A DNA stretch of 43,170 bases. Origin: a virus. The position numbers and the translations under genes were made by a program. Shown one piece after another: positions 2,820 through 38,305 of the stretch. The DNA lies in IMG/VR virus record IMGVR_UViG_3300028800_000024, positions 1-43,170 of that record; one strand, written 5' to 3'. Every line of letters starts with the position of its first letter. Within the stretch, counting starts at the first letter, position 1. The notes below the pieces were generated by a model, which was not told the origin of the DNA, did not search any database, and saw only the letters and a list, made by a program, of their open reading frames with translations.

Positions 2820-4346
2820 ATGGCCAACACTATCAATAACACACTACCAGGACTGGTTTCAACGAACCCGTTTACGAGTGGGACGAGCGGTGCCAATTTA
2901 GGCATAGGAGGAACTACCACGCCGACGTTGGCTCCTTCTTCTACCACCCTATCTCCTAGTAACAATGGCCTTAGTCAAACAGGTACTTATCAAAACACTC
3001 CCATTTCCTCGTATATACCCTCTGGTAATATAGTTGCCAATAGGAGCACGGGGCCTGGAACTTCTAATATCTCCGCACCTGTTCCTACGTCTGCTCCGCA
3101 AACTGGTGGTTCAACGGGAGGGGCAGGAACGGGAGGTACGAATACATACGGTTTAACTTCGTCCTCGCCGAATTGGTATCAGCTTCAACCTGGAGAAACT
3201 ACGGCGAATTACTACGCTCGCACACAAGGACAAACCCAAACAGCGGCACTAGCGCAGACACAACCCACAGGAGGTTCAACGGGTTCAGGTACAGGCGGCG
3301 GAGCGGCTCCTGCGGGCATGATGTACAACGGACAGGGACAGTTAGTGCCGTTGGATAACTCTCAAACGGTGAACGGTGCGGGACAGAACACTTCAATCGC
3401 TTCCAACGTAGCCACGGGTGGTGGCACGCAAACGAACTTCCCTAGCATCGTAGGGGGATTGGCTTCAACATCGGCTTCACCTTCTGCGGCGTTTACCACG
3501 GCGCAAGGGCAGCAAGCGGCGGCACAGCAGGGTTTGCTTCAGACGCAGTTGAGCGAAGCATCGGCATTAGGCGATAACGCTTCTACGCCGATACCGATTG
3601 AGTTTCAACAAGGACGAGGCGCGATCATCCAAGCGGAAGGTTCACAACAGGCACAGGCATACGCAACACAGGAACAGAACGCTATCCAAGCCGAACAAGC
3701 CGCCACGGGGCAACAGGGAACCCAGCAGTCAGGTCTAGCAGCGGCGGGAGGTTTGGCACAGCCACAGCAAGTGAATCCAACTAACGTACCGTATAACCCT
3801 CTAAACGGACAATACGGTACACCAGCGATAACCAACTTCTCTAGTAATGGAAGTGTAGCTAGTGGCGCACAGGCATTAGGCGCATTTAATGGACAGCAAG
3901 CAGTAGGACAGAACATAACACAACTCAATTCTCAACTTGGTGGAGCGCAAGTGGCAGGACAGAATCTTCAGAGCTTGATAACCCAAAACAATATCAACCC
4001 ATCAGCATTGACGTTCGCTAACGGCGCATTGCAGTTGGGAGCGCAATATACTAGCAATCCCGCTTACGCTAAGTTTCAGGGTGCAGTAAATGATTTTATC
4101 AGTGCTATTGCGCCAGTTCTCGGCGCGGGAGGAAATGTAACCGACATGAAAACACAGATGTCCTCGCAGATTGTTAGTTCGCTTCAAAGTGGTTCAACGA
4201 TGAACGATGTTATCTCCTATTTCTTGCAACAAGCACAACAGAAGATTCAGGGTATGAGCACGGGAGGCGGTGCGGGAGTGGGAAGTACGCAAAACAATGG
4301 AACCTCAAACACCTCAAACCAATACAGCTGGAACTACACCAGCTAA
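2820..4346 (+). CDS. Low-complexity virion (possibly internal) protein rich in Q, A, G, S and T
   Basis: The 508-residue product begins 1 nt after the previous stop. Residues 1-200 are Gly/Ser/Thr/Pro-rich and disordered in appearance. Residues about 215-330 are Gln/Ala-rich and probably helical (AQGQQAAAQQGLLQTQLSEA). The C-terminal part includes a hydrophobic helix-like stretch (FISAIAPVLGAGG). It overlaps the transglycosylase gene by 50 nt. In podoviruses, Gln/Ala-rich proteins next to a transglycosylase-bearing protein are often ejected internal proteins. That role is inferred from the neighbour and composition, not from homology. Confidence 0.55.
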   Translation: MANTINNTLPGLVSTNPFTSGTSGANLGIGGTTTPTLAPSSTTLSPSNNGLSQTGTYQNTPISSYIPSGNIVANRSTGPGTSNISAPVPTSAPQTGGSTGGAGTGGTNTYGLTSSSPNWYQLQPGETTANYYARTQGQTQTAALAQTQPTGGSTGSGTGGGAAPAGMMYNGQGQLVPLDNSQTVNGAGQNTSIASNVATGGGTQTNFPSIVGGLASTSASPSAAFTTAQGQQAAAQQGLLQTQLSEASALGDNASTPIPIEFQQGRGAIIQAEGSQQAQAYATQEQNAIQAEQAATGQQGTQQSGLAAAGGLAQPQQVNPTNVPYNPLNGQYGTPAITNFSSNGSVASGAQALGAFNGQQAVGQNITQLNSQLGGAQVAGQNLQSLITQNNINPSALTFANGALQLGAQYTSNPAYAKFQGAVNDFISAIAPVLGAGGNVTDMKTQMSSQIVSSLQSGSTMNDVISYFLQQAQQKIQGMSTGGGAGVGSTQNNGTSNTSNQYSWNYTS

Positions 4347-7486: not shown

Positions 7487-7833
7487 TGGCCGAAAACGCT
7501 AATCGGGATAAAAACTTTGCAACTACGCTCCTTGCCACATCATCAGTGGATGGTAAGTCCCCCGTGAATGTTTACGCCGATCCCAACACTCACCGTATTC
7601 TTGTTGATTTATCGGGTGGGATAGCAAGCCTTTTACAAAAAGATACGTTCACTTCAACTAATAACCAGACTACGTTTACGCCTACCCAAACGGTTGCATT
7701 TGATATGTACTTTTCTGTTAATGGTTCTATCCAAAGTCCTGCAACGGATTATTCAATAATTGGAGGTTCTTACGTCCTTAATTCAGGTATCCCTTCTGGT
7801 TGTGCAATAATCCTTTGCTACGCAACGGCATGA
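7486..7833 (+). CDS. Small virion/fibre-associated protein, related to the preceding gene
   Basis: The 115-residue product begins MAENANRDKNFATTLLATSS, paralogous to the module in the 90-residue neighbour (RKDANFVTT and the VDG motif). The C-terminal half (FTPTQTVAFDMYFSVNGSI, PATDYSIIGGSYVLNSGIP) looks like a beta-strand repeat typical of fibre tips. The ATG overlaps the previous stop and the TGA stop overlaps the next start (ATGA). Function is inferred as a tail or fibre accessory. Confidence 0.65.
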   Translation: MAENANRDKNFATTLLATSSVDGKSPVNVYADPNTHRILVDLSGGIASLLQKDTFTSTNNQTTFTPTQTVAFDMYFSVNGSIQSPATDYSIIGGSYVLNSGIPSGCAIILCYATA

Positions 7834-9338
7834 AGATAAAACATATTATCATAGGGGGTGCCGTTGTAGCAGGATTATTTGCTTTGCCTGTTCTTGCTTC
7901 TACTCTTCAAGGTTTTCAAGGGGGAACTGGCATTTCAACTACAACCGCTGGGAATGTAGGAAATTGCCTGCAAGTATCTTCATCTTCTCCTTTCCTTACA
8001 TGGAGCGTGGGTGCGTGCGGCTCCGGCGGCTCCTCTACCCTCATCTTCGCAGGCTCTTTCATTGGGGTCACGGCTTCGGGCACGAATGGATATATCATCT
8101 CAAATACAGGTGTCACAAGCACCGCAGGGTTGCTTACCACTTCCACCGCATCAAACACTTACTATCTCCTCACGAATCCCGCAGGATATGTTTCCTCCTC
8201 CATCATCAATGGTCTTATCTCATCCTCTTCTGCGTGGAGTTCGTTCTATCCGCTTTCAAACCCTGCGGGGTATGTCACTTCTACTGGTTCTTCCGCCACG
8301 GGCACTCCGACCTTTTATCTCTTTTGGAACAGTTCAGGCACCCCCGCGCAGACCTCAACCTTCTCGGTTGCCGGAGCCACTGGTAATCTTATTAACCCTA
8401 ACGGAATCTGGGTCACGGGTTCTTCCACGCCGAACTACAATGGCTTTTATGTCCAATCGGGAACGAACGCGGGACATCCCACCTACATCGGCCCGAACGG
8501 GGCTATCTGGTCGGAAGGGTACGACTGGTTCATCTCCCCCGCCGTGAACTCGCAGACATTGGACTTTTACGTTTCCCTTTCAGGGTTGGCGAACCAACCC
8601 CCTCCGTCCATCACTTCATGGAACGCGCAGAACGGCGCGAGCGGGAATGTTGCAACGATTTCCAACGGGTTGTCGGTCTATCAAGGGCTTACCGTGAACG
8701 CGACCTCCAATCCGCTCGCCGTGCCATTTCTCATTGAATATCCAGGAGGAAACAGCACGCCCGCGACTCCTATCTTTCAGATGGAAAACTCCGGCTCACA
8801 ATCAGGGTTCGCCTTCACGTTCGGAGGTGTCCCCCAATCCCAGATACGCGCCGACAACGCAGGGAATATGATTTACGCCTCAAAGGGAACGCAGTATTTC
8901 GGATACGCAACGGACTACAGTCAACTCGTCCCCATTTCCTTTGGTAACAATATCTCCAACCCCTATATGTACATCCCTGCGGCGGGGAACGTGGGAATCA
9001 ACACCACGGTTCCGAAATCAACACTCACGGTGAACGGTTCCCTCGCTACCCAACTTCAGGAAGTTTCCGCCTCCACCACACTCACTTCAAGCAGTTCTAT
9101 CGTCGGGGTGATAGCGACTTCCACTTCTCACGTCGTTATTACGTTGCCTGACGCGACCACGGTTGCGGTAGGAAGCGTGGTGACGGTGACGGATGAGATA
9201 GGGGCGGCGTCAAGCTATCCCATCACCGTTGCGGCGGCGGCGGGGCAGTACATAAACGGGAAAGCTACAACGACCATAGCGACGAATCAAATGTCGCTGG
9301 ATTTTTACGGGAACGGGACAAATTGGTACATAAAGTAA
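7830..9338 (+). CDS. Secreted-type fibre/adhesin-like protein with signal peptide
   Basis: The 502-residue product starts with a classical Sec signal: basic MKIKH, a hydrophobic core (IIIGGAVVAGLFALPV) and a probable cleavage after LAS. The mature part is Ser/Thr/Gly-rich with GFQGGTGIST, repeated 'NPAGYV' motifs (about residues 118 and 145), VGINTTVPKSTLTVNGSL and a C-terminal beta domain ending NGTNWYIK, which resembles the end of the 122-residue protein at 35092. Similar repeats occur in phage fibres and in surface proteins of candidate-phylum bacteria. A Sec signal on a virion-region gene is unusual, so the product may be exported to the host surface instead of, or before, assembly. Confidence 0.7.
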   Translation: MKIKHIIIGGAVVAGLFALPVLASTLQGFQGGTGISTTTAGNVGNCLQVSSSSPFLTWSVGACGSGGSSTLIFAGSFIGVTASGTNGYIISNTGVTSTAGLLTTSTASNTYYLLTNPAGYVSSSIINGLISSSSAWSSFYPLSNPAGYVTSTGSSATGTPTFYLFWNSSGTPAQTSTFSVAGATGNLINPNGIWVTGSSTPNYNGFYVQSGTNAGHPTYIGPNGAIWSEGYDWFISPAVNSQTLDFYVSLSGLANQPPPSITSWNAQNGASGNVATISNGLSVYQGLTVNATSNPLAVPFLIEYPGGNSTPATPIFQMENSGSQSGFAFTFGGVPQSQIRADNAGNMIYASKGTQYFGYATDYSQLVPISFGNNISNPYMYIPAAGNVGINTTVPKSTLTVNGSLATQLQEVSASTTLTSSSSIVGVIATSTSHVVITLPDATTVAVGSVVTVTDEIGAASSYPITVAAAAGQYINGKATTTIATNQMSLDFYGNGTNWYIK

Positions 9339-9359: not shown

Positions 9360-9692
9360 ATGAACATCACACTTCCAGCATCAATTCAAGACGACATCAT
9401 CCTCGCCTACGCTTTAGCAAACGGCTACCAGCAGACCGTGAGTGCGCCGGAAACTTTGACCTATGACGCGCAAGGGAATCCAGTGCAGGTTCCTGCATCG
9501 TCCGGTCCGAATCCGCAGTCAGCTTCGGACTTCGTTTCAGCGCTCATAGCGAACCAGATGATACAGGTCTACCAACAGGCGGAGATCGCGGCGGCAGTGG
9601 CAGCGGCCACGGAGCAAGCGACACAGACCGTGCAGGCGAACATTGCCACCGCCGTACAAGCACAGCAATCCCTTAAAGTAACCCATGCGTAA
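9360..9692 (+). CDS. Small protein with C-terminal Ala/Gln-rich helix
   Basis: The 110-residue product has a mixed N-terminus (ITLPASIQDDIILAYALANG) and a long Ala/Gln/Thr helix (IYQQ-type sequence EIAAAVAAATEQATQTVQAN) over about residues 70-105, probably a coiled coil. It lies 21 nt after the 502-residue gene and overlaps the next start by 8 nt. It could be a trimerising or chaperone component for the adjacent fibre-like proteins. No family was recognised. Confidence 0.6.
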   Translation: MNITLPASIQDDIILAYALANGYQQTVSAPETLTYDAQGNPVQVPASSGPNPQSASDFVSALIANQMIQVYQQAEIAAAVAAATEQATQTVQANIATAVQAQQSLKVTHA

Positions 9693-14401: not shown

Positions 14402-14410
14402 TGTTATAAT
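14402..14410 (+). promoter_or_regulatory. Extended -10 leaderless promoter
   Basis: TGT-TATAAT (14402-14410) is a perfect extended -10 element located 6 nt before ATG 14417, so the predicted transcript begins at the start codon. No good -35 hexamer is seen at 16-18 nt. Confidence 0.6.
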
Positions 14411-14888: not shown

Positions 14889-15782
14889 ATGAAGCCGACG
14901 GACTATGTCGCGGGCGATGGGCATATTGTTCTCGGTGCTGTCCCTCCAGTTCTTTCAGGAGATTGGTCACCATATTATGAGTTTTTTGAACGACAAATGC
15001 TGAACTCCGGCGATTCGGAATCGTGTGTTTTATTCACAACTCAACAGGCAATGGATTCTCAGGTTGAACAACAGATTCAATCGGGTGTTATTTCGGCACA
15101 GACCGTTGCATGGTTTGATTCTTTAGGATATATGGACGTTGGAGCAGATGGGAAAAAGCACTTTCATTCCAGTCCCCGTTGGCTCGCCGCTTTGACAGGA
15201 AACGGACTTAGGGGAAACAATGTTGTGGATGGATGGGATGTTTTGAGAAAGTTCGGCGCGTTACCTTATAAAGATTTTCCCGTAGACCCGACTTTAACTC
15301 CCCAACAATTCGTTGACGCTACGGCGATCACTCAAGCGATGAAAAATAAGGGGCAACAGTTCCTTCTTGGCGTGGGAGGTAAAAACTTCGTCCAATATCA
15401 CTGGCTTCTGAATGGGACAGATAACTTTCAAGCGACAATTTCTCCGCTTCAATATAGCCCCCTGTGCGATGGTGTTAATGTAGGAAGCGATTGGAATGAA
15501 GTAAATCCAGTTCCGCCCGCATCAGGGGCAAACCCCGGCCACTGCGTAGGGAGAATAAAAGATGTATTGCCTTTGACCGCCGTGGAATACGACCATTATA
15601 TGCCTAACCCAAAGAATCTGATTAACTATCCCATAGCATATTCTTTACAAGCCATCGTCACTATTACTCCTCCCCCTCCGGCTCCCCTCCCTCCACCGAA
15701 CCCCACCCCCGTACAGGCCTCAACGTGGTTACAAAAATTGGTCACATGGTTACAAACAATACTGACAACAGTTCAGAATTAA
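14889..15782 (+). CDS. Putative papain-like cysteine peptidase (lysis region)
   Basis: The 297-residue product lacks a confident family match but shows an order consistent with a papain-like fold. It has Cys46 in DSESCVLFTTQQAMDSQ, an alpha domain with tryptophans (WLAALTGNGLRGNNVVDGWD), His218 in NPGHCVGRI, then YDHYMPNPKN with an Asn/Asp candidate and a final beta strand. The C-terminus is a Pro-rich linker (TPPPPAPLPPPNPTP) and an amphipathic WLQKLVTWLQTIL helix. ATG 14889 (AGGG 6 nt upstream) is preferred over GTG 14856, which overlaps the endonuclease gene. A role in peptide cross-link cleavage at lysis is an inference from the adjacent holin-like genes. Confidence 0.5.
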   Translation: MKPTDYVAGDGHIVLGAVPPVLSGDWSPYYEFFERQMLNSGDSESCVLFTTQQAMDSQVEQQIQSGVISAQTVAWFDSLGYMDVGADGKKHFHSSPRWLAALTGNGLRGNNVVDGWDVLRKFGALPYKDFPVDPTLTPQQFVDATAITQAMKNKGQQFLLGVGGKNFVQYHWLLNGTDNFQATISPLQYSPLCDGVNVGSDWNEVNPVPPASGANPGHCVGRIKDVLPLTAVEYDHYMPNPKNLINYPIAYSLQAIVTITPPPPAPLPPPNPTPVQASTWLQKLVTWLQTILTTVQN

Positions 15783-16153: not shown

Positions 16154-16280
16154 ACGGATTGTCAATCTATTAGGTTACTAGCGATATATTGTGTCAAGGT
16201 ATGCCGCCGTTATGGGTTACCGTGAGGAACCCATACGGGAGCACATCTGCTCCTAGTTCTTTAACAAAAAGGAGGATTCT
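16154..16280 (+). promoter_or_regulatory. Leader region with two hairpins before the SD-rich gene cluster
   Basis: This 127-nt noncoding stretch contains a 7-bp hairpin (ATGGGTT 16212-16218 with AACCCAT 16228-16234) and a 6-bp hairpin (GGAGCA 16238-16243 with TGCTCC 16248-16253, 4-nt loop). An A-rich Shine-Dalgarno (AAGGAGG) follows. A TTGTCA (16159) and TATATT (16185) pair is spaced 20 nt, too long for a confident promoter. It looks like a transcribed structured leader. Confidence 0.45.
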
Positions 16281-17118: not shown

Positions 17119-17127
17119 TGGTATACT
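17119..17127 (+). promoter_or_regulatory. Extended -10 promoter for the noncoding region
   Basis: TGG-TATACT (17119-17127) fits an extended -10 promoter immediately after the stop at 17110. Transcription would start near 17134 into a region with no gene. No convincing -35 hexamer is present. Confidence 0.45.
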
Positions 17128-17133
17128 GTAACT

Positions 17134-17600
17134 AGCTCCTGCCCTTCTCCCAAAGGGCAAATATCCTCCAAAAGAAAGGGGGGGCGTCAAAATTAAAATT
17201 AAGCGTCCTCCCTTCCCTCCCATAATTGAACAGCGGTTTGCCCGTGGCTTGGTTAGCCGTAGTAAAAGGTTTTACGCCGTGTTCGTTCATTAGGCCGTAG
17301 TAGCTTGATAACCATTACAAAAGAAAAGACCCCATGCCGTGCCAAATGGTCTGTGGGGTCGGAAAGCATCACGCTTTTTCCTTGGATATACCCGGCGATG
17401 ACCTATGTTCGTCGGTATCTAAATGCTAGCACTGATTGCAAAAGGAGTTATGCACTTCTTTTGTAACGTGTAATGTGTCGTAGTTTATTGACAGCGTGGG
17501 ATAGGCTCACGAGGGTAAAAAGGTTAGTTAGATGGCCTCTCTCGCCCTGCGGCTAACACCCGCCCCGCTGTCAGCAAATTACCTGTTTAATAGAAAAATA
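17134..17600 (+). ncRNA. Candidate large structured noncoding RNA
   Basis: About 490 bases without a supportable gene contain an ordered set of strong helices on the plus strand. They are GCCCTT/AAGGGC (17141-17158); an 11-bp helix 17176-17186 with 17204-17214; GTAAAA/TTTTAC near 17270; GACCCCA/TGGGGTC (17328-17334 with 17354-17360); an AGCAT/ATGCT-closed domain (17365-17427) enclosing a 10-bp helix 17388-17398 with 17409-17418; a 10-bp stem-loop 17439-17463; and an 8-bp helix 17489-17496 with 17566-17573 that encloses GGGT/ACCC and GTTAG/CTAAC. GCCGTAGTA occurs twice. No known RNA family was recognised. No tRNA was found. Confidence 0.45.
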
Positions 17601-17850: not shown

Positions 17851-18189
17851 TTGCCCAAAAACGCCCCGCCAAGCCCTTCGGAGGTGGAAAGCTATATAAC
17901 GGCTCAATCCCTCGCTTTTGGGGTAAATCCGGCCATTACAAGGTTCATCGTTTCCCATGAGAGCCAAGACGGCAGGAACATGGTCGGGCACGAACCGAAC
18001 GGATCAATTTCCTACGGTTATTGGCAGTTCAACAATCGAAACGACGGCTTTGATAAAGATTGCGCTATGGACTTAGCGTGCAGTACAAAAATGGCATTGA
18101 ACTGGATTCTCGCGGGTAAGATAGGAAAGTGGTCTACATGGTCGGGAAGGTGCAAGATGTACCCATACGACAATCCCCCGAACTGCTAG
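17851..18189 (+). CDS. Lysozyme/transglycosylase-like enzyme, probably exported
   Basis: Counting from TTG 17851 the product has 112 residues; the real start is likely further upstream. The domain has FIVSHESQDGRNMVGHEPNG, with the candidate catalytic Glu at residue 37, then SISYGYWQFN, the 'G-x-x-Q-F' element of lysozyme-like transglycosylases, and four cysteines (DKDCAMDLACS, GRCKMYP, PPNC) able to form disulphides. With the upstream signal or anchor sequence this looks like a secreted or signal-arrest-release endolysin. It would be the murein hydrolase for lysis, alongside the peptidase candidate at 14889. The family call rests on short motifs. Confidence 0.6.
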   Translation: MPKNAPPSPSEVESYITAQSLAFGVNPAITRFIVSHESQDGRNMVGHEPNGSISYGYWQFNNRNDGFDKDCAMDLACSTKMALNWILAGKIGKWSTWSGRCKMYPYDNPPNC

Positions 18190-18192
18190 GTA

Positions 18193-18221
18193 TTGCCATA
18201 AGGTTGAAGTTCGCATATACT
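18193..18221 (+). promoter_or_regulatory. Sigma70-like leaderless promoter
   Basis: TTGCCA (18193-18198), a 17-nt spacer and TATACT (18216-18221) lie 6 nt before ATG 18228, so the predicted transcript starts at the start codon. Confidence 0.65.
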
Positions 18222-18227
18222 AAGGGC

Positions 18228-18707
18228 ATGGCTCCCAAGATTGGAACTATGCCTTGGAATAAAGGAACCGCCGATTTGATCGCGCGGAAACAGCATATTC
18301 ATGAATATTATCTAAAGAATAGGGAACGTTTACTAGAATATCAGCGTCAACAACGCGTATCGGGACGGGCAGAGGAATTAAGAAAAATAAGACGTAAAAA
18401 AAACGTTGAACAGATGCGAAATAGAGAATCTCTTTGGGAACATCAACACAGAAAAGAACGTTATAAGAAAAAAAGGGAGTACAATAGAAGTCAATATGAG
18501 TATCTTATGGATAAAACTGGTGATGCTATTCGCTATCGTAAATGGACAGAAGAAGATTTCCAGTTTTTGCGCGATAATTATAAAACCATGAGTGATTTAG
18601 AAATGGCATTGGCATTGAGTAGAACGTGGGCGGCGACGCGAAGAAAAATGGAAGCATTGCGGCTCATAAAACAACCCCAGAGGATAAAAGATTTATTAGC
18701 TCATTAA
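18228..18707 (+). CDS. DNA-binding protein with SANT/Myb-like helix-turn-helix (homing-endonuclease-associated type)
   Basis: The 159-residue product begins MAPKIGTMPWNKGTADLIAR, a 'PWNKG' module also seen at the start of phage homing endonucleases. The middle is very basic and helical (residues about 20-100, rich in K, R, E and Y). The C-terminus holds a SANT/Myb-type domain, WTEEDFQFLRDNYKTMSDLE followed by MALALSRTWAATRRKMEALRL. No nuclease motif is visible. It may be a regulator or a degenerate homing gene. AT-rich codon use and its own leaderless promoter suggest an independently acquired gene. Confidence 0.65.
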   Translation: MAPKIGTMPWNKGTADLIARKQHIHEYYLKNRERLLEYQRQQRVSGRAEELRKIRRKKNVEQMRNRESLWEHQHRKERYKKKREYNRSQYEYLMDKTGDAIRYRKWTEEDFQFLRDNYKTMSDLEMALALSRTWAATRRKMEALRLIKQPQRIKDLLAH

Positions 18708-18779: not shown

Positions 18780-18807
18780 TTAACTAATCCTGTACGCTTG
18801 GTATAAT
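18780..18807 (+). promoter_or_regulatory. Strong promoter for the structured RNA
   Basis: TTAACT (18780-18785), a 16-nt spacer and TATAAT (18802-18807), the latter preceded by TGG (extended -10). The predicted start, 7 nt after the -10 box, is 18814, exactly the first base of the RNA closing helix. Confidence 0.65.
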
Positions 18808-18813
18808 CTAAGA

Positions 18814-18940
18814 GGTGCTTTGATGGTGGGGAAATACTAGTTGAACCCCAATAAGCTATAAAGTCCTGGAACAGATAATATAGCGAGTAGGGTTGGGAGT
18901 GTCCTTACATAACAGCTCCCTCTCCACCATCAGAGCATCC
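18814..18940 (+). ncRNA. Compact three-way-junction RNA with 16-bp terminal helix (undescribed)
   Basis: The 5' end (18814-18829) pairs with 18924-18939 in a 16-bp helix containing two G-T wobbles. Inside are P2 (AACCC 18844-18848 with GGGTT 18890-18894, extended by GCTATA 18855-18860 with TATAGC 18879-18884) and, with no gap, P3 (GGGAG 18895-18899 with CTCCC 18916-18920). The promoter start coincides with the 5' base of the helix. The next gene starts 8 nt downstream, so this is either a cis-acting 5' leader or an independent small RNA. No U-tract terminator follows. Confidence 0.6.
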
Positions 18941-18947
18941 CTACCCT

Positions 18948-19127
18948 ATGAAAAAGAAAAAGGAAACTAAATTGCAAGAACTTGAACGGCGCATTGCAGA
19001 ATTAGAGCGTCGTCCTATTATCTATCCTTGTACCGCGCCACATTATACGCCCATGCAAGGGCAAATGGGATATTACTGTAATTATTGTAAGCAATGGAAC
19101 TGCGGGCAAACTCATGTTATTTGTTAG
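18948..19127 (+). CDS. Small Cys-rich protein (59 aa)
   Basis: The product begins with a Lys-rich coiled coil (MKKKKETKLQELERRIAELE) and has YYCNYCKQWNCGQTHVIC at the C-terminus, a likely zinc site (CxxC...C...H). It starts 8 nt after the structured RNA and has no Shine-Dalgarno site, so translation may depend on that RNA. Function unknown. Confidence 0.6.
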   Translation: MKKKKETKLQELERRIAELERRPIIYPCTAPHYTPMQGQMGYYCNYCKQWNCGQTHVIC

Positions 19128-19417: not shown

Positions 19418-19510
19418 ATGAAAAGCTACGAAAAAGTTAGGTTAGTTATTAAAAAGTCGGCCGCATCGGGTTGTTTCGTAGCTTTCCTGATGTTGCCGAC
19501 TTTTTGTTAA
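19418..19510 (+). CDS. Leader peptide overlapping a terminator (30 aa)
   Basis: A 30-codon frame starts exactly at the predicted transcription start and encodes a basic N-terminus (MKSYEKVRLVIKKSAASGC) and hydrophobic end (FVAFLMLPTFC). Its second half is the terminator hairpin 19451-19505, so translation of the peptide would compete with hairpin folding. The replication gene starts 5 nt after its stop. An attenuator role is inferred. Confidence 0.5.
   Translation: MKSYEKVRLVIKKSAASGCFVAFLMLPTFC
19451..19505 (+). terminator. Intrinsic terminator/attenuator hairpin in front of the replication gene
   Basis: AAAAAGTCGG (19451-19460) pairs perfectly with CCGACTTTTT (19496-19505). An inner helix pairs CATCGGG with CCTGATG. 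The stem runs into a T-tract, as in Rho-independent terminators. It lies between the promoter at 19383 and the gene at 19516. Confidence 0.65.
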
Positions 19511-19515
19511 ATAAC

Positions 19516-20253
19516 ATGGCACAACGACGATTAATAAGCCCCATGATAGTTGAAAGCGATGCGTTCCTTGATATGCCCATTTCAAGCCAAGCGTTGTATT
19601 TTCACCTTTGCATGAACGCCGATGATGATGGCTTCGTGAACCCTAAGAAGATAATGCGTTTGATCGGCGCGGCGGTGGATGATTTGAACGTACTACTTAC
19701 AAAAAGATTCGCTTTGAAGTTTGAGAATGGGGTAATAGTTATAAAGCATTGGCTCATTCATAACTCCATTCGGAAGGATAGATACCACGAAACAATCTAT
19801 GCCGAGGAAAAGAAGCTCTTAAAAGTCAAGGAAAATGGGGCTTATACGGAAGTTGGCAACCAAATGGCAACCAGTCGGCACCTGAAGTTAAGTAAAGCTA
19901 AGGTAAGTGAAGCTAAATCCCCCGCGAGCGGGGATGGAAAAGAGGTTAATGAAATAATCTTTTTATTCAAAGAAGTGAACCCCATGATTGAAAAGTATTA
20001 CGGCCGCGATTCAGAACGTAAAGCTATTGAAAGAATGTTAAAGCAATTTGGCCGCGAAAAACTGGAAGGGATGATCGCGTCGTTACCAAAAATCAACGGT
20101 CAAAAATACTGGCCCAAAAGCACCACTCCAATACAGTTGGAAAATAATATAGCGCACTACATTGCGAAAAGGTCGGAGCTTGTGGAGAAGCAGATAGCAA
20201 AAACAAATAAAATGGCGATAATGCCAACAAAAACAAATGAACCATCGTTATAA
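19516..20253 (+). CDS. Phage replisome organiser / replication initiation protein
   Basis: The 245-residue product has the N-terminal pattern of phage replisome organisers: RRLISPMIVESDAFLDMPIS, QALYFHLCMNADDDGFVNPK, KIMRLIGAAVDDLNVLLTKR and VIVIKHWLIHNSIRKDRYHE. This is a winged-helix-type origin-binding domain. The C-terminal region (ERKAIERMLKQFGREKLEGM) is helical, as in DnaD-type helicase-loading modules. Such proteins bind the phage origin and recruit the host helicase. ATG 19516 follows the terminator and leader peptide. It overlaps the next gene by 17 nt. No phage polymerase, primase or helicase was seen, so replication probably relies on host enzymes. Confidence 0.85.
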   Translation: MAQRRLISPMIVESDAFLDMPISSQALYFHLCMNADDDGFVNPKKIMRLIGAAVDDLNVLLTKRFALKFENGVIVIKHWLIHNSIRKDRYHETIYAEEKKLLKVKENGAYTEVGNQMATSRHLKLSKAKVSEAKSPASGDGKEVNEIIFLFKEVNPMIEKYYGRDSERKAIERMLKQFGREKLEGMIASLPKINGQKYWPKSTTPIQLENNIAHYIAKRSELVEKQIAKTNKMAIMPTKTNEPSL

Positions 20254-20638: not shown

Positions 20639-21067
20639 ATGAAGCGTAAATATAAAAAATCGCTTTATCAAGTTGCGATACGTCGTTTGGATATCGCGTT
20701 CGCCAAAATGATCCGCGAGCGCGACGAGAAAAAAGGATGTATCACAAGCGGTAGGATGGTTCCCCTAGATTGCGGCCATTTCAGGTTCCGTTCGCTTATG
20801 CCTACGCGGTGGCACCCAATGAATTGCAACGGGCAGAGCTTGAAAGATAACAGGTTCATGGGCGGCAGGACGTTTGAATACGGGCTGGCGATAGATAAGA
20901 GATATGGGATGGGGTGGGCGTTGTTTTTAGAGAAGCTCTCCCACGATTACGCCGGATGGTCTATGGATGATATAGCTTATTTAACGGACGCGGCGCGGCG
21001 GGGATCACGCGTATACGAACAGGCATACTTTCAGCTAAAGCCGGAACATAAGTTATCCCCCTTCTAG
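20639..21067 (+). CDS. NinG/Rap-like recombination protein
   Basis: The 142-residue product has the order of motifs of lambda NinG (Rap) proteins: LDIAFAKMIRERDEKKGCIT, then LDCGHFRFRSLMPTRWHPMN, the 'GHF-R' His/Arg core followed by 'N-x-N-x-Q' (MNCNGQSLKDN), and EYGLAIDKRYGMGWALFLEK. Lambda Rap is a structure-selective nuclease acting on recombination intermediates. The usual zinc CxxC pairs are reduced here to single cysteines, so activity might differ. Position after the replication gene fits a recombination role. Confidence 0.7.
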   Translation: MKRKYKKSLYQVAIRRLDIAFAKMIRERDEKKGCITSGRMVPLDCGHFRFRSLMPTRWHPMNCNGQSLKDNRFMGGRTFEYGLAIDKRYGMGWALFLEKLSHDYAGWSMDDIAYLTDAARRGSRVYEQAYFQLKPEHKLSPF

Positions 21068-21958: not shown

Positions 21959-22119
21959 CAACTATCTTAGGGAATCCCAATACACTTTGGTCGCGGTCGT
22001 GGTCGTGGTCGCGGTCGTGGTCGGGGTCGTGGTCGGGGTCGCGTTCGTGGTCGCGGTCGTGGTCGGGGTCGCGGTCGTGGTCGTGGTCGCGGTCGCGGTC
22101 GTGGTCGGGGTCGGTATAA
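21955..22119 (+). CDS. Repetitive Ser-Trp/Arg/Gly dipeptide protein (54 aa)
   Basis: After an 11-residue lead (MTTILGNPNTL) the protein is a run of alternating Ser and Trp, Arg or Gly (WSRSWSWSRSWSGSWSGSRS and onward), encoded by a 6-base repeat TCG-NGG. ATGA overlap with the preceding micro-ORF supports this frame over the Val-rich and antisense alternatives. The dipeptide pattern resembles nothing recognised. Alternating Trp and Arg residues could bind nucleic acid or membranes, which is speculative. The -10-like TATAAA at 22115 overlaps its stop. Confidence 0.5.
   Translation: MTTILGNPNTLWSRSWSWSRSWSGSWSGSRSWSRSWSGSRSWSWSRSRSWSGSV
21988..22114. repeat. Hexanucleotide tandem repeat (TCG-NGG)n
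   Basis: About 21 copies of a 6-base unit TCG-[C/T/G]GG, varying only at the fourth base. Both strands lack stops in several frames, which produces spurious long open frames. Length variation by slippage is expected. Confidence 0.9.
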
Positions 22120-22133
22120 AAATAATTACTTAC

Positions 22134-27139: not shown

Positions 27140-27147
27140 GGTATGAT
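27119..27147 (+). promoter_or_regulatory. Leaderless promoter for groES-groEL
   Basis: TTGCAA (27119-27124), a 17-nt spacer and TATGAT (27142-27147), then 7 nt to ATG 27155. This supports ATG 27155 over ATG 27143, which lies inside the -10 box, as the groES start. Confidence 0.65.
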
Positions 27148-27154
27148 TAAACCA

Positions 27155-27463
27155 ATGATTCAGCCAGTGAACGGTCACATTTTAATAAGTCCCCTAGAAC
27201 ACAAATCCTATCTTCCAACGGATAAGGGGACATATGAGGAGATAGGTGTGGTTATTGACGCAGCTGATGGTATAACTGAAAAACGGGAATGGAATGGTAA
27301 GGAATATCCCCCCGAACTTTCTAAAGGCGACAAAGTATATTTTGATTCATGGTTGGCAAGTAAGTTTCCCACAGGAGAAGGTGATGAGTATTTCTGGCTC
27401 GTGCCTTTCAAAGACGTAAAGGCTGTTGAAAAACAAAATGGAACCGACACGGTATCAAAATAG
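27155..27463 (+). CDS. groES: Phage co-chaperonin GroES
   Basis: The 102-residue product begins MIQPVNGHILISPLEHKSYL, the usual first strand of GroES (compare M-x-I-x-P-L-x-D-R-V-x-V). It has GTYEEIGVVIDAADG, ELSKGDKVYFDSWLASKF for the 'G-D-x-V-x-F' core strand, and EYFWLVPFKDVKAVE at the end. Length is close to bacterial GroES (about 97). The mobile-loop region lacks the typical GG-I-V-L tripeptide, so pairing is probably specific to the phage GroEL. Both genes lie in one unit behind their own promoter. It would cap the chaperonin ring to fold phage proteins, most likely the capsid. Confidence 0.85.
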   Translation: MIQPVNGHILISPLEHKSYLPTDKGTYEEIGVVIDAADGITEKREWNGKEYPPELSKGDKVYFDSWLASKFPTGEGDEYFWLVPFKDVKAVEKQNGTDTVSK

Positions 27464-27674
27464 CGTGTGCGGGGAGCATAGGGGTTGGCTTCACAAGTGG
27501 ATTCACCTTTCCTATACTCCTAAAGGTGAACTTACGCGGTGTGAGCGGTGCGGAACGAAGATGCATTTTCCGTATGAGATGCCGCGACACATTGTGCTGT
27601 CATACATGATAAGGTCGGTTTTGAGGGCAGACGATCCGCTCTTTTCCCGCGAGTATCCAAATATAAAAATATGA
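27438..27674 (+). CDS. Small zinc-finger-like protein between groES and groEL (78 aa)
   Basis: The product, starting at ATG 27438 inside the end of groES, has SVCGEHRGWLHKWIHL and LTRCERCGTKMHFPYEMPRH, giving CxxH and CxxC pairs for one zinc. The stop overlaps the groEL start (ATGA). Its HKW motif recurs in the gene at 29444. Being translationally locked between groES and groEL, it may be functionally linked to them. Role unknown. Confidence 0.6.
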   Translation: MEPTRYQNSVCGEHRGWLHKWIHLSYTPKGELTRCERCGTKMHFPYEMPRHIVLSYMIRSVLRADDPLFSREYPNIKI

Positions 27675-29269
27675 TTAAAACCAATCTCTATACAGGCAAA
27701 GAAGCCCGGGAGCGCATGATGAAGGGTGTACAGCGTGCAAGTGATGCGGTGGCTGTTACATTAGGAACGTCTGGAGCGAACAGTGTGATTGAGGTAATTG
27801 AGTCACCTGGACATTTTGTGAGCAATGACGGCGCGACAATTTTGAGCCGTATTAGATTTGAAGACCCCCTTGAAGAGATGGGCAGGAAGATACTTTTAGA
27901 GGCCGTAGGTCGCGCAAATCGGGCGAGTGGCGATGGTAGTTCAACGGCGACAGTGCTCACCGCAGCTATTTTGGAAGAAGGCGTGAAACATATAGGCGAA
28001 GTTGCCCCTATGGAGATAAAGCGTAGTTTAGATGCTTGCTTACCGCTTATAGAAAAATCGCTAAAAGCCCAGAAAAAAGATTTGATTGACGCGGAAGGCA
28101 ACATAGATTTCAAACTATTGGAGCAGGTTGCATCCATCAGTGCCGAGGATGAATCCATAGGTAAGATGATAGCCGAGATTTACGGCAAAATTGGCAAGGA
28201 AGGGATTATAAACTGGGAAGCGAGCAAGACGAATGAGGACAGCTATTCTCTCGGTTCAGGTTTGAAGATTGACGGCGCTACCTATGTTTCACGGTATATG
28301 TGCGACTTCATCAATGGTGAGTATACAAAACAAGCTACCTTAGAAGCTCCGTATGTTCTTTTAGCCAAGGCGAAGATGACCGGACAATACGAAATGGAGA
28401 AGTTGATCGCGGAACTTCAGGACAAAGGGGTGAAAGAATTGGCTATTTTCTGCGATGAAATGGATGCGCCGATGATAAACAGCTTTGTTCTGGCCCGCGC
28501 ACCACAGACGCTAGGAATGAGATTCGTAGTTATTAAGATGCCTACAGTGTTCAACGATGACTGGTGGGAAGACCTAGAAAAAGCCACGGGAGGGAGGATT
28601 ATCAGTGCTAGCACGGGAATCAGAATGAAAGACGCTAAGATGGAGTTTTTGGGTGTAGTAGGCAAGATTGTCGTCACCCCCGAAGATACGTTTATTGACG
28701 GTGTAGCGAGCATGAAAGACCACATTAGAAGTTTAGAGGCAGAAGGAACCGAATTATCTTTAGCCCGCGCTGCAAGGTTGAACACTAAGACGGCCAAGTA
28801 TTGCGTTGGAGGGATAAGCGAATCAGGGTTGGCATATAGGAGGTTGAAGGTTGAAGATGCTATAAACTCTGCATGGTGCGCGATGCAGCACGGGATTGTG
28901 GCGGGGGGAGGTGCCGCGCTACAACATTCAGCAAACGCTTTGGATATATATAATAAGGAAAATATCGGAGCGGTTATACTCAATGAGGCATTACGAACTC
29001 CACAAAAGCAGATAATAAAAAATTCAAGTGGTGATTATAAAGAATTAATGCCTAAAATGGGTGGCAATCTATCATTTAATTCAAAAACTGGCAAAGTAGT
29101 GGATATGTTTGAAGCCGGAATTGTAGATAGCTATGACGTGGTGCTCGGCGCAGTGAAGAATGCAATCGGTGTAGCTTCAGGTATTCTGACTTGCGGCACA
29201 GTAGTCCTATTGCCCCGCCAAGAAGAATCCATAGAGGGAATCATTAGGAACATCGTACAAACGCCATGA
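27671..29269 (+). CDS. groEL: Phage chaperonin GroEL
   Basis: The 532-residue product is full length for a group I chaperonin (548 in E. coli). It keeps the catalytic and nucleotide-binding aspartates: VSNDGATILSRI (Asp53), ASGDGSSTATVLTAAI (Asp88) and KVEDAINSAWCAMQHGIVAG GGAALQ (Asp near residue 396). It differs at the first ATP loop, LGTSGANSV instead of the usual LGPKGRNVV, so the normally conserved Lys is Ser. It lacks the GGM-repeat tail, ending IIRNIVQTP. Apical-domain sequence is divergent. It folds proteins in the cytoplasm with GroES, and a dedicated chaperonin suggests a demanding capsid or fibre. ATGA overlaps link it to both neighbours. Confidence 0.95.
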   Translation: MIKTNLYTGKEARERMMKGVQRASDAVAVTLGTSGANSVIEVIESPGHFVSNDGATILSRIRFEDPLEEMGRKILLEAVGRANRASGDGSSTATVLTAAILEEGVKHIGEVAPMEIKRSLDACLPLIEKSLKAQKKDLIDAEGNIDFKLLEQVASISAEDESIGKMIAEIYGKIGKEGIINWEASKTNEDSYSLGSGLKIDGATYVSRYMCDFINGEYTKQATLEAPYVLLAKAKMTGQYEMEKLIAELQDKGVKELAIFCDEMDAPMINSFVLARAPQTLGMRFVVIKMPTVFNDDWWEDLEKATGGRIISASTGIRMKDAKMEFLGVVGKIVVTPEDTFIDGVASMKDHIRSLEAEGTELSLARAARLNTKTAKYCVGGISESGLAYRRLKVEDAINSAWCAMQHGIVAGGGAALQHSANALDIYNKENIGAVILNEALRTPQKQIIKNSSGDYKELMPKMGGNLSFNSKTGKVVDMFEAGIVDSYDVVLGAVKNAIGVASGILTCGTVVLLPRQEESIEGIIRNIVQTP

Positions 29270-29818: not shown

Positions 29819-30103
29819 ATGGCATTTCCAAAAGGTAATAAACTCGGAGGACGACATAAGGGTTCTTTGAACAAGGAAACTTTGGTCAAAGAAGAACGGC
29901 GTGCGATGTTTGATGCTAAAGCATCAGAGAACTGGGAAAAGGTTATAGCTGCTTTGATAGAGAAGTATCCAACCTATGTAGCCGATCAGTTTATGGAAAA
30001 GGCCAAGGAGCGTGTAGAACACGAGATAAAGACCGACAACCCCATCATTAAGAAAGCAACCGAACAACTTAATGAACTCCATAGGACTGGAAAACTTGAC
30101 TGA
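29819..30103 (+). CDS. terS: Terminase small subunit (probable)
   Basis: The 94-residue product opens MAFPKGNKLGGRHKGSLNKE, the 'P-x-G-N-x-x-G-G-R-x-x-G-S-x-N-K' DNA-binding lead seen in many phage terminase small subunits and related packaging proteins. It is helical afterwards (ENWEKVIAALIEKYPTYVAD). It overlaps the large subunit gene by 32 nt, the classical terS-terL arrangement. It would recognise the packaging site and regulate TerL. Confidence 0.75.
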   Translation: MAFPKGNKLGGRHKGSLNKETLVKEERRAMFDAKASENWEKVIAALIEKYPTYVADQFMEKAKERVEHEIKTDNPIIKKATEQLNELHRTGKLD

Positions 30104-31724
30104 AGAGCAGGTTAGTGAAGCGTACGAAGGTAATCCGGCGTTATGGGTCATTAAGCACGAAATAAAGAATGAGGTTGGTATTCCTATTGAGTTCAAGAAG
30201 CGGAAGTTCTTATGGGATATTTATAACGATCTCAGTCCCTATCAAGTGATTTTGAAGGCACCGCAGATTGGAGCGACGGTGATGAATACCTTAAAGAGCT
30301 TGTATGTGGCTAAGAAATTGAATCGGCAGATTATCTATACCTTACCGACGTTGAGCGACGTACAAGACATGGTAGGCGGTTCGTTCAATCGTATCATCGC
30401 GCAAAACCCAGTTTTAATGGAGTGGGTAAAAGACCATGACACGGTGGAACAGAAGCAGGTTGGTGATTCAATGATATTCTATCGCGGCACGTTCACCGCA
30501 AAACAGGCCATGATGATTCCTTCTGGCCTGAACATTCATGACGAGGTGGACGCCTCCGACCCGCAGGTCATCACGCAATATGAAACTCGTCTGCAAGCGC
30601 AAGAAGATGGCGGATGGCGATGGTACTTCTCCCATCCTTCTTTATCCGGCCACGGAGTTGATGTATACTGGAACCAGTCGGACAAAAAAGAATGGTTTGT
30701 TAAATGTTCCAATGGACACGAACAATATCTTAGCTGGCCGGAAAGCATTGACCAAGCAAGAGAAATCTATATCTGCAAAGAGTGCAAAGCAGAACTTACG
30801 GACGATCAGCGTATTAACGGCCGATGGATGGCAACAAGCAAGGGTGAGTTCAGCGGGTACCACATATCCCAACTTCAGCTCTATAACAAGTCAGCCAAAG
30901 ACATCCTCAAGGCATTCAACGACCCACAAAAGGACAAGCAGTATTTCTATAACTACGTCTTAGGTTTACCCTACATCGGTTCGGATGACAGGATAGACCC
31001 CACCGTGGTTCTAAGGAACTGCGTGGATGAGGTGAATGATTATTACAATCAGCGAGCGTTCTTTGGCGCAGACACAGGACATGGGATTCACTATCTTGGC
31101 ATGAACGCGCAAGGGGCGTTTATCTATGAGAATGTTAACGAGATAACCGCGAGTAAAGACCCTTATGACCGTGTAAGAATGTTGTTGCGCCGTTTTCCAA
31201 GGTCTATATGGCTCTTTGACCAAGGGGGAGATTTGATCGGCGTGAGAAAACTACAAGCCGAGTTCCCCGGTCGGGTTTTCTTGTGTTACTTCCGCAAGGA
31301 TAGAAAGACCAACGACTTTGTTGAATGGGGTGCGAACGACCAATACGGCAAGGTCATGGTGGATAGGAACCGACAGATAACCCTAATGGTGGAAATGATA
31401 AGGGATATTGGGAGATTAAGGTTGGCTGGTACACAGGAAGATTGGGGCGAGTTTGCTTCGCACTTCGGAAACATCTACCGGGAGGTGATTGAGGTCAAAA
31501 CCCAACCGGGCAAGGACGATAGAAGCCTCTACGGTAATGAGTATGTGTGGAAGCGGAATGGCCCCGACCACTTCTGCTTTGCTTTACTTTACGCGATTGT
31601 GGCGTATCAGCATTTTGAAGGGCAGATGGCAAAGTTCATCCCGGCAGGGAACATAAGAGCTGGTATCTCAAAAGCCCCTATCGTGTCGGACGAGGGAGTG
31701 CAACTTATGTGGCCAGTGCGATGA
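30072..31724 (+). CDS. terL: Terminase large subunit
   Basis: The 550-residue product has a Walker A-like motif LKAPQIGATVMN (61-72, a variant P-loop as in lambda GpA-type terminases), a Walker B NIHDEVD (Asp157-Glu158), a zinc-like CSNGHEQYL...YICKECK segment (about 220-245), and a nuclease-domain start FFGADTGHGIHYLG (about 330). WLFDQGGDL follows with a conserved Asp and GNEYVWKRNGPDHFCFAL near the end, typical of the RNase H-like nuclease. It packages DNA through the portal. Start ATG 30072 overlaps terS. The stop overlaps the next start. Confidence 0.9.
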   Translation: MNSIGLENLTEEQVSEAYEGNPALWVIKHEIKNEVGIPIEFKKRKFLWDIYNDLSPYQVILKAPQIGATVMNTLKSLYVAKKLNRQIIYTLPTLSDVQDMVGGSFNRIIAQNPVLMEWVKDHDTVEQKQVGDSMIFYRGTFTAKQAMMIPSGLNIHDEVDASDPQVITQYETRLQAQEDGGWRWYFSHPSLSGHGVDVYWNQSDKKEWFVKCSNGHEQYLSWPESIDQAREIYICKECKAELTDDQRINGRWMATSKGEFSGYHISQLQLYNKSAKDILKAFNDPQKDKQYFYNYVLGLPYIGSDDRIDPTVVLRNCVDEVNDYYNQRAFFGADTGHGIHYLGMNAQGAFIYENVNEITASKDPYDRVRMLLRRFPRSIWLFDQGGDLIGVRKLQAEFPGRVFLCYFRKDRKTNDFVEWGANDQYGKVMVDRNRQITLMVEMIRDIGRLRLAGTQEDWGEFASHFGNIYREVIEVKTQPGKDDRSLYGNEYVWKRNGPDHFCFALLYAIVAYQHFEGQMAKFIPAGNIRAGISKAPIVSDEGVQLMWPVR

Positions 31725-37258: not shown

Positions 37259-38305
37259 ATGGCAGGCGGAACAGCTCCGAATGTCACAATCCAGACGGTA
37301 ACTAACCAGTACCTCGCCCCAAGATGGGTGGATTTGACACTTCGTGACAATTACTTTTTTGGTAAGATCATGGAGAAGACGAAAAAGTGGGACGGCTCAC
37401 AGATGCTCTTCCCGATGAAGTATCAAAAAGGTGTTTCTTCGGTTGCATTTAATGGTTACGACCTTCTCCCGATAACGCAGCAGCCGGTATCGGTCAACAT
37501 GACGTTCTATCCGAGCTTTATCGCTACGAACGTGTCATTGGCAGGTACTGACCTCTCCATCAACAACACGGATATGCAGACCATCAAGTTGATGTCCGTA
37601 ACGATGGAATCCCGCGCGCAGGATGGCGCAGATGATGTCGGTAACTTCCTTCAGGGCGACGGTACGTCTTTCGGCGGCAAGGCCCCGAACGGTCTTGCCA
37701 ATACGATTGACAACGGCACGGTAGCGGCAACCTACGGAGGTTTGCCCCGCGCGACGTATTCAGGTTTGAACTCCACAGTCACGGCTTCCACGAATAATGC
37801 TATCTCCCTCGTCCAGATTCGGACGTTGTGGAACAACATTTCGGATGGTGGCGTTATCCCTGACTTCATTCTTACGGATTACACGACATGGGGCTACCTT
37901 GAGCAGCTCCAGACCCCGTTCCAGCGGAATAACATGGACTTCTCTCCGAGAGAACGGACGGTCGCGCAGTCTTCGGGTTACTCCGAACAGCGGTGGGACG
38001 GCATGATATTCTCCCGCGATAAGAAAGTCACGACGGGTAACTTCTACATGATGAACCTGAACTTCCTTGAGTGGTTCGGTTTGAAGTGGTGGAAGGGGGA
38101 GAGAGTCAGCCCGAAAGCAAAGATAATTGAAGGCAACGTGTACAAGGAATCTATGTACGCGCCGGGCGATGCTTTCACTTGGACGGGCATGATAGAGGCC
38201 TACAACCAGGGAACCATAAACGGTTTCATGATTCTCGGCGGCCAGCTTATCTGCCGCGCTCCATTCCGTCAGGGCGTCTTGACGGGTATCACAGCCGCAG
38301 CGTAA
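37259..38305 (+). CDS. Major capsid protein
   Basis: The 348-residue product follows the scaffold. It has the composition of HK97-fold coat proteins: N-terminal arm (TIQTVTNQYLAPRWVDLTLR), a spine helix region (DMQTIKLMSVTMESRAQDGA), then a loop with GNFLQGDGTSFGGKAPNGLA, and a C-terminal segment (DAFTWTGMIEAYNQGTINGF) with the final strand GQLICRAPFRQGVLTG. The spacing upstream is 45 nt and lacks a Shine-Dalgarno site. A degenerate late-promoter box (ACACTGATAA at 37213) is present. A likely substrate of the phage GroEL. Confidence 0.85.
   Translation: MAGGTAPNVTIQTVTNQYLAPRWVDLTLRDNYFFGKIMEKTKKWDGSQMLFPMKYQKGVSSVAFNGYDLLPITQQPVSVNMTFYPSFIATNVSLAGTDLSINNTDMQTIKLMSVTMESRAQDGADDVGNFLQGDGTSFGGKAPNGLANTIDNGTVAATYGGLPRATYSGLNSTVTASTNNAISLVQIRTLWNNISDGGVIPDFILTDYTTWGYLEQLQTPFQRNNMDFSPRERTVAQSSGYSEQRWDGMIFSRDKKVTTGNFYMMNLNFLEWFGLKWWKGERVSPKAKIIEGNVYKESMYAPGDAFTWTGMIEAYNQGTINGFMILGGQLICRAPFRQGVLTGITAAA

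Follow-up and report, generated by a model that had tools for sequence, protein, structure and literature searches.

A predicted phage RNA family with a conserved helix foot and differing interiors, lying mostly ahead of genes

What is the RNA encoded at positions 18814 to 18939 of an uncultivated phage genome, whose two ends pair with each other and whose first paired base falls on a predicted transcription start? We analyzed this locus within the complete 43,170 bases of the virus record (the window) and in relatives of the phage. The original prediction had presented it as an undescribed three-way-junction RNA with its own promoter, possibly acting as a cis-regulator, a trans-acting small RNA or an RNA of replication or packaging. 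As stated there, the element belongs to the replication region: a 192-aa gene (18129-18707) stands before it, and after it come the small genes preceding a replication-region protein (19471..20253, + strand; Rep), which has no Pfam match and whose relatives, 74 to 35% identical, occur in many phage contigs. The first downstream ORF encodes a Cys-containing product of 59 aa without a PHROG match (18948..19127, + strand); its ATG does lie 8 nt past the helix, and no Shine-Dalgarno sequence was seen between the two. Pfam and PHROGs matches identify NinG (20639-21067), a Cpn10-type GroES (27143-27463), GroEL (27671-29269), TerL (30072-31724) and the major head protein (37259-38305). Phage-encoded chaperonin genes such as GroES and GroEL here (27143-29269) are also found in the related TM7 phage MG269973 and in MW202566, and the TM7 phage DolZOral124_53_65, a distant capsid relative of the window phage, encodes Cpn60 too. 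We infer that a host among the Patescibacteria is possible; a TerL search of GTDB genomes gave no match, and the MCP search led to two metagenome-bin contigs only, which allowed no safe host call. Two further repeats were observed in the window: a long run of GGTCGYGGTCG-type repeats with self-folding capacity (21984-22130) and an imperfect inverted repeat of 26 positions across the start of the Rep gene (19436-19520).

The predicted fold of the RNA is exceptionally stable for this genome. The stretch 18814-18940 has a minimum free energy (MFE) of -54.8 kcal/mol versus -31.8 for shuffled sequences (z -5.94; 0 of 200 shuffles as good), and among 2152 stretches of 140 nt on both strands no folding z in the window is more extreme than that of the RNA (-6.66); the second most extreme (-5.75) belongs to 7801-7940, where two ORFs join. 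The terminal helix P1, which had been put at 16 bp, is present but really measures 19 bp (18814-18832 with 18921-18939), with G-U at 3 pairs; no other near-perfect long-range helix in the window is as long, the runners-up on either strand having 12-15 bp. Its 5' strand (18814..18832, + strand, 19 nt) starts with the 10 nt GGTGCTTTGA and its 3' strand (18921..18939, + strand) ends with the 10 nt TCAGAGCATC, which together form the conserved foot described below. P1 encloses a three-way junction consisting of J1/2 (18833..18843, + strand; 11 nt unpaired in the model), the P2 arm (18844..18894, + strand) and the P3 hairpin (18895..18920, + strand). P2 is predicted, in MFE and centroid structures alike, to pair as 18844-18848/18890-18894, 18855-18860/18879-18884 and 18863-18865/18874-18876, that is, 5 bp + 6 bp + 3 bp, and P3 has 6 bp in the MFE form (18895-18900/18915-18920, 14-nt loop), with 2 further pairs within the loop in the centroid. 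In agreement with the contiguity originally described, the predicted fold leaves zero nucleotides between P2 and P3, and likewise between P3 and P1. Inspection by eye revealed no kissing loop of the pRNA type between the P2 and P3 loops, ARAGORN found no tRNA or tmRNA in the window, and Rfam 15, including its riboswitches, leaders, pRNA and 6S, returned no match at the gathering threshold or at E<=10, so that the RNA can still be called undescribed.

The position of the promoter was equally borne out. A perfect extended -10, TGGTATAAT (18799..18807, + strand; predicted +1 at 18814), is preceded at 16 nt by a weak -35-like hexamer, TTAACT (18780..18785, + strand), and its TATAAT (with TGG upstream) ends 6 nt ahead of 18814, so the usual +1 would be the first paired base. 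The window has only two exact copies of the extended -10 TGNTATAAT, at 14402 and 18799. From these counts we estimate a probability of the order of 1e-4 that one of two such sites would lie within ~1 nt of where the longest helix starts; the original prediction had also called this chance low. P1 is followed by CCTACCCT, which lacks the GC-rich hairpin and T run of an intrinsic terminator, and none was found on the + strand between 18000 and 20000. A discrete transcript of ~127 nt, as had been proposed, is therefore not indicated. Taken together, a promoter that starts where P1 begins and the lack of a terminator suggest a module at the 5' end of an early, replication-region mRNA, and from the sequence the window module is most simply read as the 5' leader of the genes downstream.

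Nucleotide searches did not lead to relatives of the RNA. The whole RNA gave a single 37-nt match in annotated phages (E=0.3), attributable to chance; an exact 19-mer of it recovered no homologue in IMG/VR, TerL-related and MCP-related contigs showed 15-base matches only, two other members, compared with annotated phages by BLAST, gave ~30-nt chance matches or none, and no relative was reached via the upstream 192-aa gene or the NinG gene. Because these searches were empty, relatives were fetched by TerL, replication protein and capsid protein and scanned, blind to motif, for long helices enclosing loops of tens to ~240 nt. Several unrelated-looking elements turned out to share their ends, GGTTCNTTGA ... 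TCAGNGAATC, and a scan combining foot motif and helix was run second, after these motif-blind scans. With a motif matrix whose training set took in most of the known members it scored, known members of the capsid-gene group reached at least 35.9, versus at most 28.6 for shuffled sequence and at most 30.3 for control contigs other than L060; the G010 member was not among the matches listed in the first matrix scan and attained 35.9 only with the retrained matrix. Retrained scanning of 444 fetched loci added three members from a distant TerL group, L030 (score 32.5), L033 and L038. The 3' end of the G005 and G024 copies, used as a search pattern, matched 83 IMG/VR stretches, and motif scans over their loci gave no clear member besides G005 and G024 themselves.

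The collection thus obtained holds at least 16 members, spanning 65-217 nt, from about 12 phages, a count that hinges on the chosen helix and motif thresholds; the contigs scanned are incomplete, and absence from a record means little. The window itself carries two, the RNA at 18814 (+ strand, 126 nt) and a second, AGTTTATTGA ... TCAGCAAATT, at 17482..17580 (+ strand, 99 nt). Two lie on the minus strand of their contigs, at 15778 in G051 (L315; 82 nt) and at 16207 in G007 (L099; 96 nt). Two genomes have two copies each: G005 (L111) at 1194 (217 nt) and 5564 (141 nt), and G025 (L338) at 1771 (97 nt) and 3102 (194 nt). The remaining ones are found at 9363 in G044 (L301; 89 nt), 1335 in G024 (L115; 110 nt), 6235 in G041 (L292; 210 nt), 19426 in G010 (L102; 140 nt), 1996 in L060 (214 nt), 4395 in L038 (108 nt), 2349 in L033 (82 nt) and 316 in L030 (65 nt). 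Outside these 16, L046 probably holds a further member (371, minus strand, 144 nt; foot p=0.003): within 345-530 of the minus strand, a perfect TTGACA-16-TATAAT stands just ahead of the helix, and the paired-ends RNA of 144 nt is in turn followed by a small gene. The stretch past its P1 contains GGTCGAA, which may be compared with GGYCGAAA in G005 and G024. A second element of G007 (p=0.0002, inner register), the fourth of G010 (p=0.001) and an element upstream of the L030 member (p=0.005) are candidates only. An uncurated match in L355 (35.8 in the first matrix scan) and a tRNA-like element of G047 (foot p=0.002 only) were left out of the count, and the foot motif is absent from the tandem neighbours G010_2, G010_3, G025_1 and G051_2. 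The G047 element (L307, 3602-3751, minus strand) has a T-arm, GGTTCGAATCC, and a D-arm-like stretch within a long extra stem and is not called by ARAGORN.

What these members share is the base of P1. The outer ~10 bp form a sequence-conserved foot, GGUUCNUUGA / UCAGNGAAUC, in which the wobble G2.U39 is present in 15 of the 16 members and U7.G34 in 13; the window copy, GGUGCUUUGA/UCAGAGCAUC, has both (pairs 2 and 7). When each phage in turn was left out, the foot of every one of the first 13 members still matched at p <= 5e-5 versus random helices. The original prediction held that compensatory changes would speak for the structure, and the terminal helix is indeed kept in the homologues through two-sided changes: across the 16 members, 93% of P1 cells are paired, two-sided changes occur at 14 of 18 pairs and the covariation score is 0.77 versus 0.20 for shuffled and at most 0.18 for slid strands, counts that are inflated by the choice of members partly for their long helices. 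This selection has less bearing on the wobble positions, the leave-one-out test and the ratio of G-U to A-C on the transcribed strand, where G-U is in excess (27:8, p=0.002). The conserved wobbles together with this excess argue that the element acts as RNA, as had been supposed.

The interior behaves differently from the foot. Alignment of four ~200-nt members over their whole length showed clear similarity at the ends only, and relatives lack an arm homologous to P2 of the window copy. In each of the 16 members the interior is slightly more stable than its shuffles (mean z -1.4); it has two branches, hence a three-way junction, in eight and one or three in the others. Since the interior differs in both sequence and length, the junction is a property of the window copy rather than the defining feature it had been taken for. 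On sequence grounds, the RNA is best described as belonging to a previously undescribed phage RNA family, with a conserved helix foot and differing upper parts.

Most members lie in sense and immediately precede a gene, the start codon following after 8-36 nt in about ten of them. L038, L033 and L030 are syntenic orthologues directly upstream of one small gene, which is 32-52% identical among the three; they keep P1, with two-sided changes at some pairs, over spans of 108, 82 and 65 nt. In L033 and L038 the first bases of the element overlap the stop codon of the preceding gene, and the element fills exactly the space from there to the Shine-Dalgarno sequence of the next. A promoter start within ~2 nt of the first paired base is predicted for the window RNA (18814), both copies of G005, the G025 copy at 3102 and G024, and also for L046. 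The order promoter, P1 at about +1, short A-rich stretch and ATG recurs in both G005 copies and G024, L046 has the same, and G025_3 has the promoter. A convincing promoter at P1 was found in only about a third of the members, the others being inside operons or tandem arrays, and in a crude shuffle test a -10 matching at least 5/6 was present in 3 of 16 members versus 0.74 expected (P=0.03). HNH-type or NinG-type genes adjoin about half of the members (L099, L338, L060, L033, L038, L111 and L115), a proportion given without a background rate, and no common regulon is visible because many downstream genes are of unknown function. In the sequence covered, G025 and L060 have only the replication gene in common with the window phage, and no relative of its TerL, MCP or GroEL was found, L060 being one 10-kb locus only; the family thus appears to cross phage lineages. 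The packaging role originally considered is disfavoured, since members occur where the terminase and capsid genes of the window phage were not found.

Other structured elements were observed around several members. The second window member belongs to a non-coding cluster (17119-17590) that also comprises a 12-bp hairpin and a four-armed paired-ends element (~17311-17470); the folding z of 17290-17480 is -4.1. The likely promoter of the cluster is an extended -10, TGGTATACT, presumably at 17119..17127 (+ strand). In G010, four paired-ends elements in tandem (L102 19426 to L103 663) precede a tRNA-Met in which leader-trailer pairing lengthens the acceptor stem to ~14 bp (~7 extra pairs), and 351 nt of this array fold at z -8.0. 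A larger second paired-ends structure lies directly upstream of the L030 member (~150-315). The relatives G042 (L294-L295) and G043 (L298) carry large tRNA sets, of ~19 and ~27 tRNA genes, respectively.

Regarding function, the element is perhaps best taken for an RNA module of an early mRNA, situated in the 5' leader or between cistrons. The conserved foot, the free interior, the position ahead of genes, the free ribosome-binding stretch and the absence of a terminator fit a module acting in cis on its own transcript, with a foot recognised by some factor, and we hold this reading of the family tentatively, at slightly less than an even chance. Candidates for the factor that would bind the foot are a ribonuclease, the RNA polymerase of the host and an RNA-binding protein of phage or host. 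The module would act on the transcript that carries it in one of two ways: it could alter the polymerase that is transcribing it, much as HK022 put does, or it could protect and process the 5' end of the mRNA, leaving the short unstructured stretch past P1 free for the ribosome. Plain 5'-end protection or processing would be the plainer alternative of the two.

Among the functions initially listed a cis leader fits best, although operon and tandem-array members fit processed trans-acting RNAs equally well. A stable small RNA could be cut from the leader or operon transcript, with P1 as its processing and stability handle, and its variable interior would then do the work as a decoy, antisense or protein-binding RNA. 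The tandem paired-ends arrays (two in G025, two in G007, two in L030 and four plus tRNA-Met in G010), the exact fit of the element between stop codon and Shine-Dalgarno sequence in L033 and L038 and the hypervariable interior all speak for such an RNA; yet the window copy has no terminator after it, nearly all members lie in sense directly ahead of a gene, and the tRNA-Met element of G010 (p=0.08) and most other tandem neighbours have no significant foot motif. We retain it as a possible but rather unlikely rival on both counts, the processing and the working interior. A translational regulator or riboswitch, in which a ligand or protein at the junction would open or close the downstream start site, could account for the close ATG (8-36 nt in ~10 members), but the Shine-Dalgarno sequences visible in L030, L033 and L038 lie outside P1 and are not sequestered, the downstream genes are unrelated to one another, and the interior lacks both the conservation expected of an aptamer and an Rfam riboswitch match; we consider it improbable.

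The inverted ends could also be a feature of the DNA: imperfect inverted repeats at the termini of a mobile element or of a site bound by protein, with an incidental RNA fold. Conserved inverted ends around a varied interior, several copies per genome at differing genomic sites and HNH or NinG genes adjoining several copies would all be expected of it, but not the sense orientation, the fixed wobble positions, G-U far above A-C on the transcribed strand, an interior that folds better than shuffles and a promoter whose +1 is the first paired base, which make this very improbable. Hardly any probability goes to an origin transcript or primer acting in replication: a replication gene does follow the module at 0.15-0.9 kb in the window, G051, G044 and G025, and at ~2.8 kb in L060, but the members in G041, G005, G024, L030, L033 and L038 were not seen beside one.

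For the cis-acting module favoured here, HK022 put would be the nearest described mode of action. The putL and putR antiterminators are folded RNAs that head early transcripts, occur as two non-identical copies and act directly on polymerase (PMC9378689). Like them, the window RNA stands at a predicted transcript start upstream of replication genes, presumably early ones, and more than one non-identical copy per genome has been found with a presumably early operon behind. Unlike put (~70 nt, two stem-loops), the present elements have a branched interior closed by P1, with 126 nt in the window and 65-217 nt in the family, and because of this difference in shape we do not file the RNA as put. 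The phi29 pRNA has paired ends, a three-way junction and its own promoter in about 120 nt. The window RNA resembles it (RF00044) in these respects, although the junction is not family-wide, Rfam gives no match and members occur in phages in which the terminase and capsid genes of the window phage were not found. 6S RNA likewise has a long terminal stem pairing its 5' and 3' ends, but this encloses a single large bubble, whereas the interior here is branched and an Rfam match is lacking. In ompA-type leaders, a stabilising 5'-terminal stem starts at +1, a free ribosome-binding stretch comes next and no conserved sequence is needed; the helix from +1 ahead of such a stretch is alike, but the foot here is conserved with fixed wobbles and is present inside operons too. 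GOLLD and ROOL are also structured phage RNAs of unknown function, often near tRNA islands (PMC12286853). They share this description with our RNA but are far larger, with elaborate conserved folds, and Rfam again gives no match.

Few structured RNA families of uncultivated phages have been described, and a common host factor is suggested by the recurrence of a foot with fixed wobbles in phages without structural genes in common. It is tempting to speculate, though we regard it as doubtful, that the family is an RNA chassis, in which a wobble-marked foot read by a common host factor carries exchangeable, phage-specific interiors, several per genome and across unrelated lineages; with the same reserve, such an arrangement would be unlike any described phage RNA. 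Action on polymerase would make the module an antitermination-like system that needs no protein and lies outside the HK022 group; processing would make it a chassis for small RNAs of phages.
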